A stretch of 13,223 nt of DNA from a bacterium (GCA_029932675.1 JAOZPP010000084.1:1-13223); one strand, 5' to 3'; shown: positions 956 through 11,949, counted from the stretch's first letter. Notes: a model not told the origin generated them from the letters alone. Numbers and translations: made by a program.

Positions 956-3157
956 ATGTCCAAGAAGAGGCATAAAAAGAAGAAAAAGCATAAAACCCCT
1001 GTCTTCCCCGGAGGGCAGGGAAACAGTTACGAGATTGGGTTGAAGCATTTTCAAAACGGCAATTACCGCGATGCCATTAAAGCGTGGCGAACCATGCCTC
1101 CAGACGTGGAGATTACGGCCAAGTTGGCCGAAGCCTACTTCAGGTATGGGCTCTCCTTCTACACCAGTGGGCAGGTTGTCCAGGTTCTCTCTGAGCTTCA
1201 TCAGGCCGTTAAGTTTAACCCAGAAAAGGCTATCTACTGCTTTCACTTAGGTTTAGCCTATCATCGAAAGGGCAATTTGGAGAAGGCCATAACCTGGTAT
1301 GAAAAGGCTCTGGAGGCTGACCCGCAAAATAGCCGATTCAGATACCATCTTGGGTTGGCCTGGATCGAGGCTGGGGCCATTGGGAAAGCTAAGGAACATT
1401 TCCACTCCATTCATAGGGAATCGGAGGAAGATAAAACCCTCTGGAAACTGGGTCTGACCTCCGCCTTATTGAAGGAGCAACGGTGGGATAAGGCACTAGA
1501 CCTTTTGAGAGATGTGGACGATGGAATTCCCTACTTTCAATCCCTCAAGGGCCTGACCTTATTGATGATGGGTAAGGAGAAGCAGGCCAAAGTCGCTTTG
1601 GATAAGTCCATTAAAGCCGGGGCAACCGATCCGCTGGTGAGATACTACCTTGGGCTTGCTTACGCCGCAGATGGAGATCTCCCTGCTGTGGTAAAGGCTT
1701 GGGAGGAGGCGCTGAAAAAGGGGCTCAGTCCACACCTGATCGAGGCTGATCTTGCGGCCATCTACCACCGGTTTGCTATCCAGGAGGTGAAAAAGGGCGC
1801 TTTGGCTAAAGCCGCGGGCTTCTGGGAGAAAGTGCTGGAACTACGGCCCCGGGACGAGGTCGCTCGAGACAACCTCGTGCATGCCTGTTTCTTAATGGGC
1901 AACCGATATTCTAAGGAAAATCGGCTCCGGAAGGCCATAGGGTGGTGGGAAAAGGTCGTGGCGTTAGACCCTAAAAACCTTGAGGTTCTGCACAACTTAG
2001 CATTGGCCTATGACCAATTAGGGGAAACCTTAATGGCCAATCGGTATTGGACGAAAGTGGTTAATAGCTGGGGGAAGCTGCAACGTTCTGACGAGGAACT
2101 CAGGGGCTCCCTCTATCTCGCCCACAGACATTTAGCAAACAATTATTTGAAGATGGACAAACCTGACAAGGCAGCAAGCGAATACCGTAAAGCTATGAGA
2201 TATAAGCCAAATGATGTGGAAACTTCAATCAGACTGGCTGAGCTTTGGCTCGGGCAGAACAACCCAGTGGCGGCGATGCGGGAGTTGAATCGTGTCCAAA
2301 GGATTGATCCGGAAAACACCGATCTCCTTGGCACCTTGGCAATGGCCTATTGTAAACATGGGGATTGCCAAAAGGCACTGGCCTGTTGGAAGAAGATAAT
2401 CCTGATAGACCCCACAAACAAGGCGGCTGCAGAGCAATTTACAGATTGTCTCCTTCACCAAGCATATAAGCAGTGGCAGCGGGGGGAGACCGATCAGGCC
2501 CTCTCTCAACTTAATGAGGCGATGGGTTTCTGTCCAGATTGTATTCCCCTATACCTCCTGATGGGTGAGATCCACCTGGATGTTGGAGAACCAGCCCGAG
2601 CCAGGGAGATCTTTAATCAGGCCATCACTATCCAACCCGAGAGGCCAGATCTCCATTTTGGGGTGGGAAATGCCTATCTCAAGCATCAGATGGCAAAGGA
2701 AGCAGAGAGGCACTTCGAGAGGGCCATCGCCTGTGCACCAGGGGATTATAACCTTCTCATCGCCATCGGGGAGTCATATTTCCACGCCAACCGTTTCAAG
2801 ACCTCAAGGAGATACCTCAGAAAGGCACTTGATGCCAACCCCAGGAACCCTTTTATCCCCTTGGAAATTGGAGCTATGCTCTTGAATGATGGCTTTGCAG
2901 ACCGTTCTATCCCTTACTTCAAGAAAGCCCTGCGGCTTTCCCCTGATATAGCCAATGCCCACTTCTTTTTGGGGTTTGCCCATTTTCAGGAGAAGAACTA
3001 TTTAAAAGCAGGTAAGGCCCTTGATCAAGCGAGAAAGTTAGCCAAGAGGGAAAATGACGAGGAGCTATTGGAGGCTATAAAAGATCTCCAGGACATTATA
3101 GAGCTTGTTTGCCTTCCATTAGAAAAGCGAGGTTATCATGAACGAAGATCCCTATAA
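956..3157 (+). CDS. Large cytosolic TPR-repeat protein heading an Hsp70 operon
   Basis: The 733-residue protein has a very basic N-terminus (MSKKRHKKKKKHKTP) followed by about 15 tetratricopeptide repeats from near residue 25 to 715. Typical units show the W/LG/Y/A/F/A/P pattern, for example HLGLAYHRKGNLEKAITWYE near residue 97. TPR arrays are helical scaffolds that bind partner proteins. No signal peptide or membrane segment is visible, so it is probably cytosolic, and the lysine-rich start could bind nucleic acid or acidic lipid. The ATG lacks a strong Shine-Dalgarno sequence. Its last 20 bases overlap the J-domain gene, and GrpE and DnaK genes follow, so a client adaptor or co-chaperone role is inferred. 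The exact client is unknown. Confidence 0.85.
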   Translation: MSKKRHKKKKKHKTPVFPGGQGNSYEIGLKHFQNGNYRDAIKAWRTMPPDVEITAKLAEAYFRYGLSFYTSGQVVQVLSELHQAVKFNPEKAIYCFHLGLAYHRKGNLEKAITWYEKALEADPQNSRFRYHLGLAWIEAGAIGKAKEHFHSIHRESEEDKTLWKLGLTSALLKEQRWDKALDLLRDVDDGIPYFQSLKGLTLLMMGKEKQAKVALDKSIKAGATDPLVRYYLGLAYAADGDLPAVVKAWEEALKKGLSPHLIEADLAAIYHRFAIQEVKKGALAKAAGFWEKVLELRPRDEVARDNLVHACFLMGNRYSKENRLRKAIGWWEKVVALDPKNLEVLHNLALAYDQLGETLMANRYWTKVVNSWGKLQRSDEELRGSLYLAHRHLANNYLKMDKPDKAASEYRKAMRYKPNDVETSIRLAELWLGQNNPVAAMRELNRVQRIDPENTDLLGTLAMAYCKHGDCQKALACWKKIILIDPTNKAAAEQFTDCLLHQAYKQWQRGETDQALSQLNEAMGFCPDCIPLYLLMGEIHLDVGEPARAREIFNQAITIQPERPDLHFGVGNAYLKHQMAKEAERHFERAIACAPGDYNLLIAIGESYFHANRFKTSRRYLRKALDANPRNPFIPLEIGAMLLNDGFADRSIPYFKKALRLSPDIANAHFFLGFAHFQEKNYLKAGKALDQARKLAKRENDEELLEAIKDLQDIIELVCLPLEKRGYHERRSL

Positions 3158-3491
3158 GGTCTTAGGCATCGACAGAAGGGCTTCCACTGCCGAGGTGAAG
3201 AAGGCCTACTTCAACCTAGTCAAGCGATATTCGCCGGAGACCCATGCCGAACGCTTCAAGGAGGTGCGAAGGGCATACGATCGGTTGAAGACAAGGGAGA
3301 GGCGGCAGGAGACCGATGTCTTCCTTTACAACGATCCATATGGAGATTTCAAGCCAGTTGCTAAAGAGTGCAGGTTTAAAGCCAAAGTTGAGGTTGAAAA
3401 AGTTGTGGAGGCCATCCTGCGTGCCTCCTCAGATCTGGAGCGGGTGGATTTCAGTGAGGATTTTACTCCCCTTGAAATGATATGGGCCTGA
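3138..3491 (+). CDS. J-domain protein lacking the HPD motif
   Basis: The 117-residue protein opens with a J domain (about residues 4-55): DPYKVLGIDRRAS, helix II AEVKKAYFNLVKRY, and helix III ERFKEVRRAYDRL. The invariant HPD tripeptide between helices II and III, needed by ordinary J proteins to stimulate Hsp70 ATPase, is replaced by Ser-Pro-Glu at residues 32-34 (bases 3231-3239). The C-terminal 60 residues contain no zinc-finger or CTD substrate domains and are unlike canonical DnaJ. The gene overlaps the upstream TPR gene by 20 bases and the grpE-like gene by 10, indicating coupled translation. It may be a regulatory J-like protein that docks on the operon's DnaK without classic activation; that is inference. 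Confidence 0.85.
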   Translation: MNEDPYKVLGIDRRASTAEVKKAYFNLVKRYSPETHAERFKEVRRAYDRLKTRERRQETDVFLYNDPYGDFKPVAKECRFKAKVEVEKVVEAILRASSDLERVDFSEDFTPLEMIWA

Positions 3492-4123
3492 GATCATTAT
3501 TCGATACTATAAGGTTTTGGAATCAGGTGGCAAGACTCAAGGATCAGCCTGTATTTGCCATCCACGAAGAGCCTGAACCTCCAAGGGAGAAGGGCCTTTC
3601 CGATGGGCCCACGGAGTTAAGAAGGGAACTGGTCAAATTAGGTAAAACTCAGCTCCGTTCCCAGGCGGTGATCGAAGCGGCGGTGGAGAGAATCGGAAGG
3701 ATGGTGGAGGAGTTGAAAGCTGCTCTTCAGCAGGTGGTGGCGAGCGACGGCCTTATAAAAGATGTGCTCCTGGTAGCCGACGGCCTTGAAGAGGCCATCC
3801 ATGCTGGAGAGGCGATGATGGAGGCTGGAGGGTCAGGGGAGGATCGACCAGGGGTTCCAGAGGAAGGTTGGTTGGAGGGTATACGCATAATCCACCGTCG
3901 GGTATGCCAGATGCTTGACAAAGAGGGGGTGCGGCCCATCCCTTCGGTTGGGGAGAGTTTTGACCCCCAGCTCCACAGAGCCGTGGGAGTTGAGCATACG
4001 TTGGAAGTTCCGGAGAACACAATTATAGAGGAAGAACGTAGGGGGTATAGACGGGGCAATCAGGTCATCCGATATGCCGAAGTGGTAGTGGCCAAGTCGC
4101 CATCGAACGAAAAGGGCAAATGA
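3482..4123 (+). CDS. GrpE-like nucleotide exchange factor
   Basis: The 213-residue protein matches the GrpE C-terminal beta domain at residues 144-213: GVRPIPSVGESFDPQLHRAV, then IIEEERRGYRRG, then QVIRYAEVVVAK. GrpE releases ADP from DnaK and resets the chaperone cycle. Residues about 45-105 form the long helical, probably coiled-coil part. The first 35 residues (FDTIRFWNQVARL and beyond) are not the usual acidic GrpE tail, and an extra Gly/Glu-rich insert (GGSGEDRPGVPEEG) sits near residue 120. The start overlaps the J-domain gene by 10 bases, and dnaK begins 3 bases after the stop. It is probably a paralogue dedicated to the adjacent DnaK; whether the housekeeping grpE lies elsewhere cannot be seen. 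Confidence 0.88.
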   Translation: MGLRSLFDTIRFWNQVARLKDQPVFAIHEEPEPPREKGLSDGPTELRRELVKLGKTQLRSQAVIEAAVERIGRMVEELKAALQQVVASDGLIKDVLLVADGLEEAIHAGEAMMEAGGSGEDRPGVPEEGWLEGIRIIHRRVCQMLDKEGVRPIPSVGESFDPQLHRAVGVEHTLEVPENTIIEEERRGYRRGNQVIRYAEVVVAKSPSNEKGK

Positions 4124-4126
4124 GCG

Positions 4127-5845
4127 ATGAGCAAAATAATTGGTATTGATCTGGGCACAACCAATTCTGAGGTGGCGGTCATAGAGGAGGGGAGGCCGGT
4201 TGTCATCCCCGATGAGAACGGCCAGAAAATCGTCCCCTCATTCGTTGGCATCTCCCCCTCAGGGGAACTTTTGGTGGGCACCTTAGCAAAGAACCAATTC
4301 ATGGCTGAGCCAGAGAGCACGATCAGGTCCATCAAACGGAAGATGGGAACCGAGGCCAAGGTTTCCCTGGGCGGGAGGACTTATACGCCTCAGGAGATCT
4401 CTGCCTTCATCCTCCGCAAGCTCAAGGGGATGGCAGAACGTTATTTGGGAGAAAGGGCGGAGAGGGCCGTGATCACCGTTCCGGCCTATTTTTCCGATAC
4501 CCAGCGGCAGGCAACGAAGGATGCCGGAGAGATCGCTGGGCTGGAGGTGGTGCGGATCATCAACGAACCCACAGCGGCGGCCCTGGCCTATGGTCTGGAG
4601 AGAGAGGAGGACCAGTTCCTCCTCGTCTACGATTTGGGCGGTGGCACATTCGATGTCTCGGTCATCGAGGCCAACTCTGGTGTGGTGGAGGTGAGGGCCA
4701 GCCATGGCAACACCCACCTGGGAGGAGATGACTTTGACGAACTGATCGTCAACTACCTAATTGCTGAATTTCAGAGGAGATATGGGGTTGACTTGAGACA
4801 AGACCGAAAGGCACTTGCTCGGATCACCAGGTCTGCCGAGGCGGCCAAGATCGAGCTTTCGGATAGGCCTTTTGCCCAGATCGTGGAGGAGTTCATCGCC
4901 ACGGTGAATGGACGGTCGCTCAATCTGGAGCTTGAACTAACCCGATCTACCTTTGAGGAGATGATCTCGGACTTAGTCCGTTCCACCGCAGATTCCATCA
5001 GGGAGGCTCTAAGGGATGCCGAACTGAGCGGCCGGGAGATAGGCAAAGTGCTTATGGTAGGTGGGTCTACTCGTATTCCCTTGGTCGGTCGGGTAGTTGA
5101 GGATATGCTCGGCCTACAACCGCACTTAGAGGTCGATCCTGAACTTTGCGTGGCCATGGGTGCGGCTGTCCAGGCTGGCATCATCGGGGGCGAACCCATA
5201 GAGGCCTACCTCGTAGACGTAGCCCCTCACTCTTTGGGAATAGCTACGGTCACCCATAAGTTTGGCATCTTATTGAAAGATCAGTTCAGTATCTTAATCA
5301 GGAGGAACACCACCATCCCCACATCCAAATCCGAGGTCTATACCACGCTCGTGGATAACCAGGAGGCTGTGGAGATCAAAGTCTACCAAGGTGAGAGCCG
5401 CACCGCATCTGAGAACAAGTTACTTGGGAAATTCCTCCTGGGAGATATCCCCAAAGCCCCTGCGGGTGAGCCCAAGGTTGTGGTTACCTTCGACTACGAC
5501 GTGAACGGCATAGTCCATGTAACGGCTAGAGATAAAAACACAGGGAACGAAAGGAGCATAACCCTTTCCGCATCACCCGATCGGCTTACTGAGGCGGAAA
5601 AGGAAAAGGCCCGGATCAAGAGCGAGGAGATGTGGAAGAGACCCTTCCCCAAAGAGGAAGTTGAAGCCTTGGTTAAGAGGGCCAAACGGATGGCCAAGAA
5701 ACTTAAGGACAAACGAACATCCAAAGAACTCTCGGAGCTCGCCTCGAAATTAGAGGGCACCATCAGGGAGGGGAAAACCGAGGAGATGAGGAGGCTCGAG
5801 GAGAGGCTGTTGGACTTGATGTATAAGTTGTCAGATACCACCTGA
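4127..5845 (+). CDS. Short DnaK/Hsp70 paralogue
   Basis: The 572-residue Hsp70 has an intact ATPase domain: phosphate-1 loop GIDLGTTNS (6-14), SIKRKMG with Lys70, VPAYFSDTQRQATKDA (118-133), INEPTAAALAYGL (145-157), YDLGGGTFDVSV (168-179) and VGGSTRIP (311-318). The linker reads AYLVD instead of the common VLLLD. In the substrate-binding domain, the SLGIAT to NTTIP segment is longer than in E. coli DnaK (insert near residues 375-390). The helical lid is short (about 485-572) and there is no disordered EEVD-like tail, so the protein is about 65 residues shorter than standard DnaK. It lies between grpE and a membrane TPR gene, which suggests a specialised rather than housekeeping chaperone. Confidence 0.92.
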   Translation: MSKIIGIDLGTTNSEVAVIEEGRPVVIPDENGQKIVPSFVGISPSGELLVGTLAKNQFMAEPESTIRSIKRKMGTEAKVSLGGRTYTPQEISAFILRKLKGMAERYLGERAERAVITVPAYFSDTQRQATKDAGEIAGLEVVRIINEPTAAALAYGLEREEDQFLLVYDLGGGTFDVSVIEANSGVVEVRASHGNTHLGGDDFDELIVNYLIAEFQRRYGVDLRQDRKALARITRSAEAAKIELSDRPFAQIVEEFIATVNGRSLNLELELTRSTFEEMISDLVRSTADSIREALRDAELSGREIGKVLMVGGSTRIPLVGRVVEDMLGLQPHLEVDPELCVAMGAAVQAGIIGGEPIEAYLVDVAPHSLGIATVTHKFGILLKDQFSILIRRNTTIPTSKSEVYTTLVDNQEAVEIKVYQGESRTASENKLLGKFLLGDIPKAPAGEPKVVVTFDYDVNGIVHVTARDKNTGNERSITLSASPDRLTEAEKEKARIKSEEMWKRPFPKEEVEALVKRAKRMAKKLKDKRTSKELSELASKLEGTIREGKTEEMRRLEERLLDLMYKLSDTT

Positions 5846-5859
5846 GACCAGAGGGAGAA

Positions 5860-6732
5860 ATGGAAGCTATCGACTTATACAACGAAGGTCTGATAAAAGC
5901 AACGGAAGGGGCGCTGGACGAGGCCATTAAACTACTGGAAAGATCACTAAGGAAGGACCCCTTACATGTAAACACCTATAACGTCTTGGGTAAGCTACTT
6001 ATCCGTAAAGGGGCATTGAGGAAGGCAAGATGGTATTGGAAAAGGGCGCTCACCATAGATCCCTTGAACCGCACGGCTCTGGCCTGTTTGGAAGCTTCAA
6101 AGGGAGGGCTATCCCGTATAGGATGGCCGCTGGCCTTCTCCCTCCTCCTCATCGGTTCCATTTTTGCCTTTAGGGGAGCAGAACAACAGATCCAAACGCT
6201 CCACAGGGAGCTTTCCACCATCGGCTCCCGGTTGGAACAAGGGGTCTTCTCCCCAAGCAGGTGGACATCTCCCTCGGCAAAACAGGTGCCCACTGAGGAC
6301 TCCTCGCAGATCAAACCACTCGACAAGGGGAAGATCAAGGAGGTTTACTCCCTGGCCTTGCAATACCATAAGAACGGGGATTTTGAGAGAGCCATCCCTA
6401 AGTTCGAAGAGATCCTGGCCTATCCTTACCCGCATGATTTGAAGGACAACGCCCAATATTGGATTGGTGAATCCCATTATGACCAAGGGGACTACAAACG
6501 GGCTCTGAGGGAGTATAAAAAGATAAAGGCCCTTTATCCAAGGGGGAACAAGGTCCTCGATGCTCAGATCAAAATCGCCTATTGTTACTATAAGTTAGGT
6601 GAGGACGGAAAGGCATTGGCTCTGTTGAGGGAGTTGGCCGATAATCCTCCCAAAGAGCCTCATGCTGAGCGGGCAATACAAAACTTAATGAGGAGGATCC
6701 ACTCCAAACTCCGGAATCGCCAAAGCCCGTGA
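5860..6732 (+). CDS. Membrane-anchored TPR / CpoB (YbgF)-like protein
   Basis: The 290-residue protein has two TPRs at about residues 3-70 (LLERSLRKDPLHVNTYNVLG), one hydrophobic segment at about 88-104 (GWPLAFSLLLIGSIFAF), and a short heptad-like helix at 106-128. A Pro/Ser linker follows, then a second TPR set (160-278) resembling the C-terminal domain of CpoB/YbgF (WIGESHYDQGDYKRALREY, ALYPRGNKVLDAQIKIA). Basic residues precede the membrane segment, so the N-terminal TPRs should be cytosolic and the C-terminal TPRs periplasmic. CpoB works with Tol-Pal at the envelope; the same role here is not shown. It starts 14 bases after dnaK with a GAGGGAG ribosome binding site, making it the membrane end of the chaperone operon. 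Confidence 0.82.
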   Translation: MEAIDLYNEGLIKATEGALDEAIKLLERSLRKDPLHVNTYNVLGKLLIRKGALRKARWYWKRALTIDPLNRTALACLEASKGGLSRIGWPLAFSLLLIGSIFAFRGAEQQIQTLHRELSTIGSRLEQGVFSPSRWTSPSAKQVPTEDSSQIKPLDKGKIKEVYSLALQYHKNGDFERAIPKFEEILAYPYPHDLKDNAQYWIGESHYDQGDYKRALREYKKIKALYPRGNKVLDAQIKIAYCYYKLGEDGKALALLRELADNPPKEPHAERAIQNLMRRIHSKLRNRQSP

Positions 6733-8220: not shown

Positions 8221-9426
8221 TTATCTTTCCAACAAAGAGCTCACCTCTGTAGCCCATCTAAGCGCTTGTAGATAGGCATCTCGGATGGTTCCAACCTCAA
8301 GGCCCGGATAGAGAACCTCCTCCCAATTCCCTCGTTCATAGGCGATAACACAATGTAGAAGGGCACCAAGGTTTCCCTCCTGGTATAGGAGGGCGTGGGC
8401 GATATCATCAGAAAGGGGTAAAGAGGCGAGAATCTCCTTTAGTGGGAGGTCAAGGAGGGCATCCAAAACGGAAAACAACCCAGTCATAAAACCCGCCTCT
8501 GCTCTTTTTTCCTTAAAACTCCCGGTGAGCAGCTCACACATCTTAGCCCTTACCATAGCGGTTACCATCAGCTCGTGGGGTTTATCATCGATCCTCGAGA
8601 GGACAAGCAGGCTTACCCACGCTTGGACCTGTTTTAACCCAAGGAGGGTCAAGGCCTGACGAATTGATTTAATCTCCATAGGCCTAGCATAAAAGGCTGA
8701 GTTAATCAATCGGAGGAGCTTATAACTGAGGGAGACATCCTGGGAGACGATCTCCTCCAGCTCTTCAAATTGTATGTCCGGGACCTGCAGTTTAGCCAAA
8801 AGGCGGAGAACGGAGAGGCGCATAGCCGGCATCCGGTGTCCCTTCACCACTTTGGGCTTACAGAAAAAGTAACCTTGGAAATAGTCGAACCCCAGGTCTT
8901 TACAGAGTTCAAAAACTTCTGGCGTCTCCACCTTCTCAGCAAGCAGCTTTACCTTATGTTGGCGGAGGAGGGTGATAAATTCCTCAAGTCTGGCCTGCTC
9001 CACAGCAATAAGATCCAGTTTGGCGATATCTGCAATATCTAATAACGGACCCAACTCATAAGGGTTAACTACATCATCCAAGGCGATCTGATAACCGCGA
9101 GAGGAAAGAAGGCGAAGGGCTTTAATTAGCTCTTCATCAAGAGTGATATCCTCCAAGACTTCCAGCACCACCCGATCCTTGGGTAAGGGAAGAGAATACT
9201 TCTCCAGAATAAAGTTGCGGGTAAGGTTGACAAAAGCCAGATGGTTACCGACGAGCTGCTCAAGCCCAATCTCCATAAAAGCGTTAAGAACCACTTCAGA
9301 GGTTGCCTGGTCACCGTTCTGAAATTGTGCTTGATCAGCTTTGTAACTGCGGAAGAGGAGCTCATAACCGATTACCTTAAGCTCACGATTGTATATGGGC
9401 TGCCTACCTACAAAGGCCTCAAGCAT
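8221..9426 (-). CDS. EAL-HDOD signalling protein
   Basis: The 401-residue protein has an N-terminal EAL-like domain (about 1-200) and a C-terminal HDOD domain (about 205-385). The EAL signature is ELLFR (22-26). Candidate metal and substrate residues remain at Asn67, Glu89, Asp117, Asp118, Lys136, Glu164 and Gln184 (FQGYFFCKP). However, the loop that normally reads DDFGTG is DDVVNP, so c-di-GMP hydrolysis is doubtful. The HDOD part shows the IVSQDVSLSYKLLRLINS and SIRQALTLLGLKQV stretches typical of this domain. YuxH/CdgJ-type proteins of this layout regulate motility or surface behaviour. The gene converges with the barrel gene, 47 bases between stops, and has a GGAG about 10 bases before the ATG. 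Confidence 0.88.
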   Translation of the reverse strand: MLEAFVGRQPIYNRELKVIGYELLFRSYKADQAQFQNGDQATSEVVLNAFMEIGLEQLVGNHLAFVNLTRNFILEKYSLPLPKDRVVLEVLEDITLDEELIKALRLLSSRGYQIALDDVVNPYELGPLLDIADIAKLDLIAVEQARLEEFITLLRQHKVKLLAEKVETPEVFELCKDLGFDYFQGYFFCKPKVVKGHRMPAMRLSVLRLLAKLQVPDIQFEELEEIVSQDVSLSYKLLRLINSAFYARPMEIKSIRQALTLLGLKQVQAWVSLLVLSRIDDKPHELMVTAMVRAKMCELLTGSFKEKRAEAGFMTGLFSVLDALLDLPLKEILASLPLSDDIAHALLYQEGNLGALLHCVIAYERGNWEEVLYPGLEVGTIRDAYLQALRWATEVSSLLER

Positions 9427-10317: not shown

Positions 10318-11105
10318 AGAAGATGGGATTCCTTCAATTTGGCATACAACTTATTGGCTACCTCAGTTGGATCACCTTCCCAGATTTCCCCCTTCTCCCG
10401 AGGCTTTGGGGTAAAGACCCTTAACACCTGGGTAGGTGATCCGTTCAGGCCAACTTCCTCCTCCTTGAGACCCACTTCCTCCAACCCCCAAACCGGGATC
10501 TCGGCCTTCTTTGCCTTCAATTTCCCCTTTAAGGAAGGAAGCCTTGGCTCATTTATCTCTTTGACCACGGTAAATAGGGCTGGAAGGGGGGTCTGAATGA
10601 CTTCATAACCCTCCTCAGTCATCCTCTCAACTACTGCGTGCTCAGGGTCTATCTTTTCTATCCGGCGGACAAAGGCCACCTGAGGGATGTTTAGGTGCTC
10701 GGCGACTCCAGGACCCACCTGGCCGGTATCCCCATCTGAAGCCTGGCGACCACAAAGGATGAGATCATAGGGTTTAAGCTTAGAAATAGCCTGCGCTAAG
10801 GTATAGGATGTGGCTAGGGTATCGGCACCAGCAAAGGCGGGGTGGGAGAGGAGGATCGCCTGATCAACCCCCAAAGAGAGGGCCTCCCTTAAGGCCTCCT
10901 CTGCTTGGGGAGGGCCCATACTGATGGCGGTTACCTCACCCCCCAGTCTTTCCTTTATCCTCAACCCTTCCTCAATGGCATACATATCGAAAGGATTGAT
11001 GATGCTGGGTACCCCTTCCCGGATAAGGGTATTCGTCTCGGGGTTGATTTTAATGTCTGTGGTATCCGGAACCTGTTTTATGAGGCAGATGATCTTCAAA
11101 CTCAA
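10314..11105 (-). CDS. Electron transfer flavoprotein beta subunit
   Basis: The 263-residue protein shows the EtfB pattern: KIICLIKQVPDT at the start, GRQASDGDTGQVGPGVAEHL (119-138) and the family signature VKEINEPRLPSLKG (181-194). EtfB binds AMP or FAD and, with EtfA, passes electrons from dehydrogenases to quinone or, in some groups, bifurcates them. The DGDTGQVGP segment resembles the anaerobic and bifurcating groups more than the mitochondrial type, a motif-level inference. A TTG at 11105 overlaps the hepT stop by 4 bases (TTGA). A second TTG at 11099 is spaced better from AGGTGA and gives the usual N-terminus. No etfA is adjacent, which is unusual. Confidence 0.92.
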   Translation of the reverse strand: MSLKIICLIKQVPDTTDIKINPETNTLIREGVPSIINPFDMYAIEEGLRIKERLGGEVTAISMGPPQAEEALREALSLGVDQAILLSHPAFAGADTLATSYTLAQAISKLKPYDLILCGRQASDGDTGQVGPGVAEHLNIPQVAFVRRIEKIDPEHAVVERMTEEGYEVIQTPLPALFTVVKEINEPRLPSLKGKLKAKKAEIPVWGLEEVGLKEEEVGLNGSPTQVLRVFTPKPREKGEIWEGDPTEVANKLYAKLKESHLL

Positions 11106-11533
11106 TCACCTGAGTGTTTTTGGAGCCACTCACCAATGCATTTGGCATAATAACTGAAATCCGCAAGGTCGTTCTGCAGATGATTATATACCTCCTCCAA
11201 ATCTACTTCCAGGTAGTTATGCACCAGAATGTTACGAAACCCAGCCACGGGGGCAAATCGGTAGGCAAAATTATCGGGGATTATCCCCTCCTGTCCCAGG
11301 ATATCAATGACCTGACGAGAAGTTTCGGGCTTAGGTAATTTAAGGCTGGATATCAAAATCTCACCTATATCTACCACGCATTCCACACTAAGTTGCAAGT
11401 ACCTCTCCACCGCCCCTCGCAAGGTAGGGTCCTTCTTTAAATCCTCCAAACTATGTCTCTGGAGATTTTTTAGATAGCCAATATACTCCTCTAATTTTCC
11501 TAATCTGTCCCCGATGCTTTCCACGTCCGTCAT
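11102..11533 (-). CDS. HepT-like toxin (DUF86 family)
   Basis: The 143-residue helical protein carries the HepT RX4HXY motif as RNILVHNY: Arg100, His105, Tyr107. HepT proteins are HEPN-type RNases that act as toxins and are silenced by MntA nucleotidyltransferase antitoxins, which AMPylate the tyrosine. The MntA gene lies directly upstream, overlapping by 4 bases (ATGA), in the usual antitoxin-first order. The catalytic residues are intact, so activity is plausible. Its own stop overlaps the first TTG of etfB, giving translational linkage to a metabolic gene. Confidence 0.9.
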   Translation of the reverse strand: MTDVESIGDRLGKLEEYIGYLKNLQRHSLEDLKKDPTLRGAVERYLQLSVECVVDIGEILISSLKLPKPETSRQVIDILGQEGIIPDNFAYRFAPVAGFRNILVHNYLEVDLEEVYNHLQNDLADFSYYAKCIGEWLQKHSGD

Positions 11534-11949
11534 AGAAGTCCTTCCTTGGCAACCCGTTCTATCAAAAGCTTTGCGTGTCTTCGGTAATAATATTGGCGAT
11601 CGAAGTAGTAGGACATCACCTTGAATTCAAACCTTATCCTCTGTAGTTCATCTTTACAGTAAATCAGTTTCCCTTCCTTCACTACCCTAAATTGAAAGGA
11701 AAGGGGAAGATCCCTGAGCAGAAGAAGATCAATCCTATCAGTATGGAAAACGACTGAGAGGTCGCTCATCAACCGCAGCCTGAGGTCAAAACGCTCGCCC
11801 CTGTCTAATCCTTCATTCAGGTACACGGCAATATCCAGGTCGCTCCTCGGCCCAACCTCCCCCCTGGCCTGAGAGCCAAAGAGATAGGCAAAAACCACTT
11901 TACTCCTGCCCAAAACCTCCACCAACTCTGTTTGATCAAACCTGTCCAT
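11530..11949 (-). CDS. MntA-type minimal nucleotidyltransferase antitoxin
   Basis: The 139-residue protein has the minimal nucleotidyltransferase core: FGSQARGEVGPRSDLDIAVY, with Gly25-Ser26 and Asp37/Asp39 as the GSX10DXD metal site, and a later acidic residue in DRIDLL (about 71-76). The C-terminal part (about 101-139) is helical and basic. MntA antitoxins transfer AMP to HepT and neutralise it. The gene leads a minus-strand operon with hepT, etfB and the lipoate-ligase-family gene. The ribosome binding site before the ATG is weak, and the upstream gap contains a two-hairpin repeat. Confidence 0.9.
   Translation of the reverse strand: MDRFDQTELVEVLGRSKVVFAYLFGSQARGEVGPRSDLDIAVYLNEGLDRGERFDLRLRLMSDLSVVFHTDRIDLLLLRDLPLSFQFRVVKEGKLIYCKDELQRIRFEFKVMSYYFDRQYYYRRHAKLLIERVAKEGLL

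Follow-up and report, generated by a model that had tools for sequence, protein, structure and literature searches.

The window analysed here is the whole of contig G000:C96 (13,223 nt) from a draft genome of 3.03 Mb with 97% completeness, and contains a five-gene operon that appears to link the ordinary bacterial DnaK to the poorly understood HscC chaperone of E. coli. On balance, we favour the reading that the operon encodes a self-contained Hsp70 machine falling on the same side as HscC in the division from canonical DnaK; its J protein would be a matched partner, one TPR protein an adaptor and the other a membrane-spanning anchor. The canonical J-domain motif is HPD; the J-like protein of the operon has SPE instead, a loss that the first-pass annotation missed, as it did the relationship to HscC and DjlC. 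Across several phyla, an HPD-less J domain is kept beside an Hsp70, a GrpE and TPR partners of its own, and the linker of that Hsp70 has changed to match, so that the question of whether such domains reflect accident or selection becomes directly testable. The HscC system, in turn, gains relatives and a possible evolutionary route, by loss of GrpE.

Organization and conservation of the operon

The genes of the operon and the sites discussed below are as follows, in window coordinates.

956..3157, + strand: TPR1 ORF, 733 aa (ORF call and Pfam TPR families)
956..997, + strand: lysine-rich N-terminal tail of TPR1, MSKKRHKKKKKHKT (read from the sequence)
3138..3491, + strand: J-like ORF, 117 aa (DnaJ, PF00226, E 1.8e-13)
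3231..3239, + strand: SPE codons, residues 32-34, at the HPD position (J alignment)
3482..4123, + strand: GrpE ORF, 213 aa (GrpE, PF01025, 1.4e-26)
4127..5845, + strand: DnaK ORF, 572 aa (HSP70, PF00012, 1.4e-174)
4901..4924, + strand: equivalent of the GrpE-signature loop (DnaK 290-295), retained (DnaK alignment)
5201..5221, + strand: interdomain linker EAYLVDV (canonical VLLLDV), L392 to V (DnaK alignment)
5252..5275, + strand: 8-residue insertion THKFGILL in loop L1,2 of the SBD (DnaK alignment)
5860..6732, + strand: TPR2 ORF, 290 aa (Pfam TPR/YfiO)
6118..6174, + strand: predicted transmembrane segment of TPR2, IGWPLAFSLLLIGSIFAFR, residues 87-105 (its sole hydrophobic segment)

ORF calling exactly reproduced the five collinear genes described at first, with overlaps of 20 and 10 bases and gaps of 3 and 14 bases, and the known families then claimed for the products agree with their Pfam matches (TPR, DnaJ, GrpE, HSP70 and TPR/YfiO). 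A ribosome-binding-site-like stretch, GGGAG, lies 5′ of TPR2, and scans for promoters and terminators gave no clear excess over shuffled sequence. Defence-system models produced no match. The GC content of the operon (0.50-0.545) is near that of both housekeeping chaperone loci (0.48-0.52), so composition does not indicate recent horizontal transfer. Elsewhere in the window, on the minus strand, there are a gene for an EAL+HDOD protein (8221-9426), apparently truncated in its N-terminal part because the EAL match begins at profile position 87; a MntA/HepT-type toxin-antitoxin pair (11102-11949), formed by genes for a HepT-like RNase (PF01934) and a Polbeta nucleotidyltransferase overlapping by 4 bases; and a gene running off the contig (12130-13221), whose product carries nearly identical repeats, DPSVAFDGTNYLVVW, together with a FlgD-Ig/T9SS-like tail.

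The operon is an extra set beside the housekeeping chaperones. It is not the only dnaK/grpE set of its genome, since dnaK-grpE occurs on contig C8 and hrcA-grpE-dnaJ on C91 (with HrcA recognised by reading the sequence and not by family search); a third, weaker Hsp70-like match is on C69. Likewise, all 18 genomes with operons of this family that were searched had at least two strong Hsp70 matches, and 17 of them a second long Hsp70, with only a fragment in the remaining one (G297). Two of these genomes contain a further unusual Hsp70, within open frames of ca. 1160-1210 aa (G015:C1:2287413 and G163:C25:41374).

The grouping of the genes also recurs in unrelated genomes, and the layout is therefore not due to chance. 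Gene calls outside the window were mechanical and high-GC loci were read by tblastn. The order TPR, J-like, GrpE and DnaK was found in 13 other loci, from Chloroflexota and Holophagaceae, and three architectures can be distinguished. Type A, with separate genes in that order, comprises the window, Chloroflexales and other Chloroflexota, the Holophagaceae locus L084 and the myxobacterial locus L228, which adds a zinc-ribbon protein and whose TPR protein was read off the gene map. In type B (L050, L053), a TPR protein of ca. 1324-1331 aa with the J domain near its C-terminus is followed by GrpE, DnaK and a zinc-ribbon TPR protein. Finally, in type C (L046-L049, L051, L054) the J domain is fused ahead of the TPRs in a protein of ca. 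430 aa, followed by GrpE and DnaK and, in four of the six loci, by a zinc-ribbon-TPR-TM protein. A DnaK is also paired with a J-TPR protein in Sorangium, in G374 and in Spirochaete/Clostridia loci. The J-TPR fusions, or a membrane-anchored TPR protein downstream, in other lineages indicate that the association of these genes is not fortuitous. Together with the housekeeping set elsewhere in the genome, this conserved grouping supports the idea of an Hsp70 set that has TPR partners and a dedicated role other than housekeeping. Three Spirochaete/Clostridia J-TPR proteins (L096, L118, L120) end with a SEC-C-like zinc motif, matched by Pfam in L120 and read as the same sequence in the other two.

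The distribution of the family is patchy, with 7 out of 301 Chloroflexota genomes and, by locus inspection, 3 out of 112 Myxococcota genomes. The best matches of the J-like protein in a sample of 290 genomes were in other phyla, and the operon was absent from the other three of the four genomes sampled from the phylum of the window; it is, therefore, not essential in this lineage. Scans of viral contigs with DnaK or GrpE alone yielded nothing, and the A2 scan of these contigs gave a single match, to an ordinary HPD J protein; the wide J alignment A1 had too much diversity to serve as a pattern. Plasmid searches by tblastn with the J-like protein retrieved only weak J-domain matches covering less than 80% of it. 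We found no description of this operon class in the literature searched, which lay apart from the main survey of bacterial J proteins (Barriot 2020, cited in PMC8215388).

A J domain without histidine and its GrpE and DnaK partners

AlphaFold confidently predicted a four-helix J fold for residues 1-65 of the J-like protein, with SPE in the loop between helices II and III, and Foldseek matched the protein to J domains. The original label, J-like, is thereby corrected to a complete four-helix J domain that lacks HPD, an absence then unnoticed. As in class C J proteins there are no G/F or substrate domains, but SPE in place of HPD puts the protein in the HPD-less type IV category. The histidine was missing from all 23 family J domains aligned, which come from loci collected with His-less seeds, so that a His-bearing version in such operons could be missed. 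Its position is occupied by P (14), D (3), N (3), S, G or Q, whereas the proline of the motif is invariant and the acid position holds E (20) or D (3). Compared with ten canonical J domains and E. coli DnaJ, the loop that leads from the motif to helix III is also shortened by six residues. L052 (6131-7408) encodes a protein of 425 aa whose J domain is of the PPEK type, and no DnaK or GrpE was matched in its vicinity.

The operon GrpE is a clear member of its family (PF01025, 93.5 bits; cut-off 25.8) and, in the GrpE tree, falls among those encoded by type A operons (88/99). Grouping by operon type is supported in this tree, where row C_L025, labelled canonical, is a family locus, and the deep branches do not resolve.

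The operon DnaK keeps all the catalytic residues checked, which are invariant across the family, as well as R167, Q378 and P419. It scores below the cut-offs of the models PRK00290 (643.8; cut-off 648) and TIGR02350 (631.8; cut-off 822.6), does not group with housekeeping DnaKs and lacks the acidic C-terminal tail, which is lost in the family save for L084, whose reading runs on. The GrpE-signature loop is kept in the family, where GrpE is encoded; HscA has lost it altogether, and HscC has either lost it or retains a shortened form. Among the rows shown, the L1,2 insertion occurs in type A, Spirochaete/Clostridia, myxobacterial and HscC proteins, but not in type B, type C or canonical DnaKs.

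Within canonical J domains, the histidine of HPD makes a bond with the main chain of linker residue L391, and the acid acts on R167 (PMC8215388), which is surrounded by N170 and D393 (PMC7289447, PMC8215388). R167 is kept in 27 out of 28 family DnaKs; position 392, L in every canonical row, holds V, I or T in all 28 and in HscCs. The contact between the acid and R167 is kept, whereas that between histidine and linker is changed on both sides. N170D and D393H occur together, beside R167, in the six type C DnaKs (L046, L047, L048, L049, L051, L054).

A single branch (100/100) separates the 28 family DnaKs from 28 canonical DnaKs, including that of E. coli and housekeeping DnaKs of the same genomes. 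When E. coli HscC and HscA were added, HscC grouped with the family (100/97) and HscA with the canonical DnaKs, and the AU test rejected placing HscC with canonical DnaKs (p 0.0003). With five HscCs, these formed a clade of their own (100/100) that left out the window DnaK, and the canonical split stayed at 100/100. In this unrooted tree of modest sampling, with long branches at the HscC end, the family DnaKs bridge canonical DnaK and HscC by degrees.

TPR proteins, proposed mechanism and alternatives

A crude consensus scan gave ca. 13 TPR motifs in TPR1 and four in TPR2. TPR1, described initially as a cytosolic protein with 15 TPRs, is indeed a TPR solenoid with no transmembrane segment in a hydrophobicity scan, the count of 15 being approximate; several relatives of type A share its basic N-terminus. 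We propose that it may act as an adaptor or scaffold for the J-like protein, which is supported by the TPR-J fusions in relatives. In agreement with its first description as membrane-anchored, TPR2 has one predicted hydrophobic segment, placed between N-terminal TPRs and a C-terminal CpoB/YbgF-like TPR domain that resembles the TPRs of CpoB and BamD (an AlphaFold model made without an alignment, of low confidence with a mean of 59, was used for this domain only). This layout of TPRs, transmembrane segment and extra C-terminal region matches the zinc-ribbon-TPR-TM protein of type C loci, with TM-bearing counterparts in L048, L049, L051 and L054. TPR2 is missing from the Chloroflexota loci, so the membrane part is not universal. 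We propose TPR2 as a putative inner-membrane anchor; its transmembrane segment and CpoB/YbgF-like domain suggest action at the inner membrane, with the putative topology given below. The SEC-C motifs in a relative and the basic TPR1 tails are weak hints of a possible link with ribosomes or export.

According to our model, the J-like protein and DnaK would be a matched working pair, largely insulated from the housekeeping DnaK and DnaJ, and GrpE would drive ADP release. TPR1 would capture clients or position them beside the J domain, while TPR2 would hold the machine at the inner membrane, with its N-terminal TPRs in the cytosol and the CpoB-like TPR domain outside; clients would thus probably be membrane or exported proteins.

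The main alternative is that the J-like protein is an inactive pseudo-J, similar to Pam16, that serves as a docking partner or scaffold for DnaK or for a different J protein but does not itself trigger ATP hydrolysis, the ordinary DnaJ of the genome doing so. Substitutions of H33 abolish J function in every canonical system tested (PMC8215388), and a His-less J domain may therefore be inactive; the exchange of H for Q is one such case, and Pam16 exemplifies a J-like partner with a structural role (PMC8215388, PMC13254874). The loss of histidine in the whole set of 23 J domains and the retention in DnaK of R167, Q378 and P419, known DnaJ contacts, are also as expected of a pseudo-J. Nevertheless, we consider it rather unlikely: the proline is invariant and the acid kept as E or D, unlike the DKE/DKS of Pam16; the linker contacted by J has changed in step (L392V/I/T in 28/28; N170D plus D393H in 6/6 type C); and DjlC, whose loop is equally short and whose acid is also E, acts on HscC. 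In fact, HscC is stimulated by DjlC (HPE) but not by DnaJ, CbpA or HscB (PMC8215388). A matched, insulated J/Hsp70 pair is, then, the best reading, because the contact with R167 is kept, that with the linker is changed and DjlC stimulates HscC, and we infer that the J-like protein may be active without histidine. A review regards as enigmatic whether HPD-less J domains are accidental or selected, with the HPE of DjlB/DjlC as the only tolerated replacement of HPD (PMC13254874). Going further, and only tentatively, the family could represent a widespread undescribed class of bacterial Hsp70 machine, in which the histidine-free J domain ([P/D/N/S/G/Q]-P-[E/D], with a short loop) is an active, selected partner of its own Hsp70. 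This class, with its GrpE and TPR proteins, would be the ancestral line that gave rise to HscC/DjlC, which has no GrpE, and the HPD histidine would be dispensable in nature when the Hsp70 linker co-evolves.

It is improbable that the operon is a spare stress-response DnaK set, a backup with no special client. GrpE and the catalytic residues of DnaK are intact and DnaK paralogues are frequent in genomes (PMC11019930), but this DnaK belongs to a distinct clade, with altered substrate-arch and linker residues and a lost tail, and is accompanied by a His-less J domain and conserved TPR partners. That the operon serves type IX secretion or the assembly of the outer envelope as a dedicated chaperone is very unlikely: the window genome has a SprA homologue and the protein with a T9SS-like tail, and TPR2 is similar to CpoB/BamD TPRs, but SprA exceeded the cut-off in only one of 20 genomes with family loci, that of the window, and the four-gene core is common in Chloroflexota. 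Of the early proposal of a dedicated chaperone for an envelope or secretion process, the dedicated set stands, the type IX link is not supported and a specific role in it is unlikely, while a role in envelope assembly through the membrane TPR protein is possible.

Comparison with known chaperone systems

The closest characterised system is HscC/DjlB/DjlC. The window DnaK and E. coli HscC are both short Hsp70s (572 aa, within the 550-580 aa of the HscC type) with a deletion at 76-101 in the NBD, present also in many non-proteobacterial DnaKs, an L1,2 insertion (THKFGILL, within the 4-8 residues typical of HscC) and a short tail; DjlB and DjlC share with the J-like protein the E for D and the six-residue loop deletion; and the E. 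coli region ybeQ-djlB-ybeT-ybeU-djlC-hscC also encodes TPR-like (Sel1) proteins nearby and has a membrane link. However, HscC lacks the GrpE signature (290-295) and a dedicated GrpE, whereas the window DnaK has the loop and its own GrpE in the operon. Furthermore, the J partner of HscC is large and keeps the histidine in E. coli (HPE), DjlB and DjlC being tail-anchored in the membrane (PMC8215388), while no hydrophobic segment was found in the 117 aa of the J-like protein. The window DnaK lies on the same side of the canonical split as the five HscCs but outside their clade. With these three departures, in GrpE signature, J partner and clade, it is therefore not assigned to HscC. Nor is the HPE of E. 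coli typical: the HPD histidine is also missing where the J partner was read for five other HscCs (RPD, RPD, RPD, DPQ and DIE in L234-L238).

With the canonical hrcA-grpE-dnaK-dnaJ operon, the window shares GrpE and a DnaK with intact catalytic residues, but it has TPR partners and no full DnaJ, HPD or acidic tail. GrpS-SglK (MxDnaK2) from Myxococcus xanthus is likewise a specialised grpE-dnaK pair, not heat-induced and with a process-specific role (PMC8265645, PMC11019930), but it is bicistronic; it was rejected as founding member on its reported neighbourhood, without a J protein, and not on the sequence of SglK. StkA was also rejected, since stk adjoins an SCP2-like and a PhaE-like gene. 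A TPR solenoid is joined to a J domain in DNAJC3/P58IPK, DNAJC7 and Synechocystis Sll1384; however, Sll1384 has HPD, and the TPRs of DNAJC7 bind the EEVD tail of Hsp70, which family DnaKs lack. Finally, Pam16 and other type IV (HPD-less) J proteins share a J fold without HPD (PMC13254874), but Pam16 has DKE/DKS and pairs with Pam18, whereas the family J domains keep the proline and the acid and have an Hsp70 and a GrpE in their operon.
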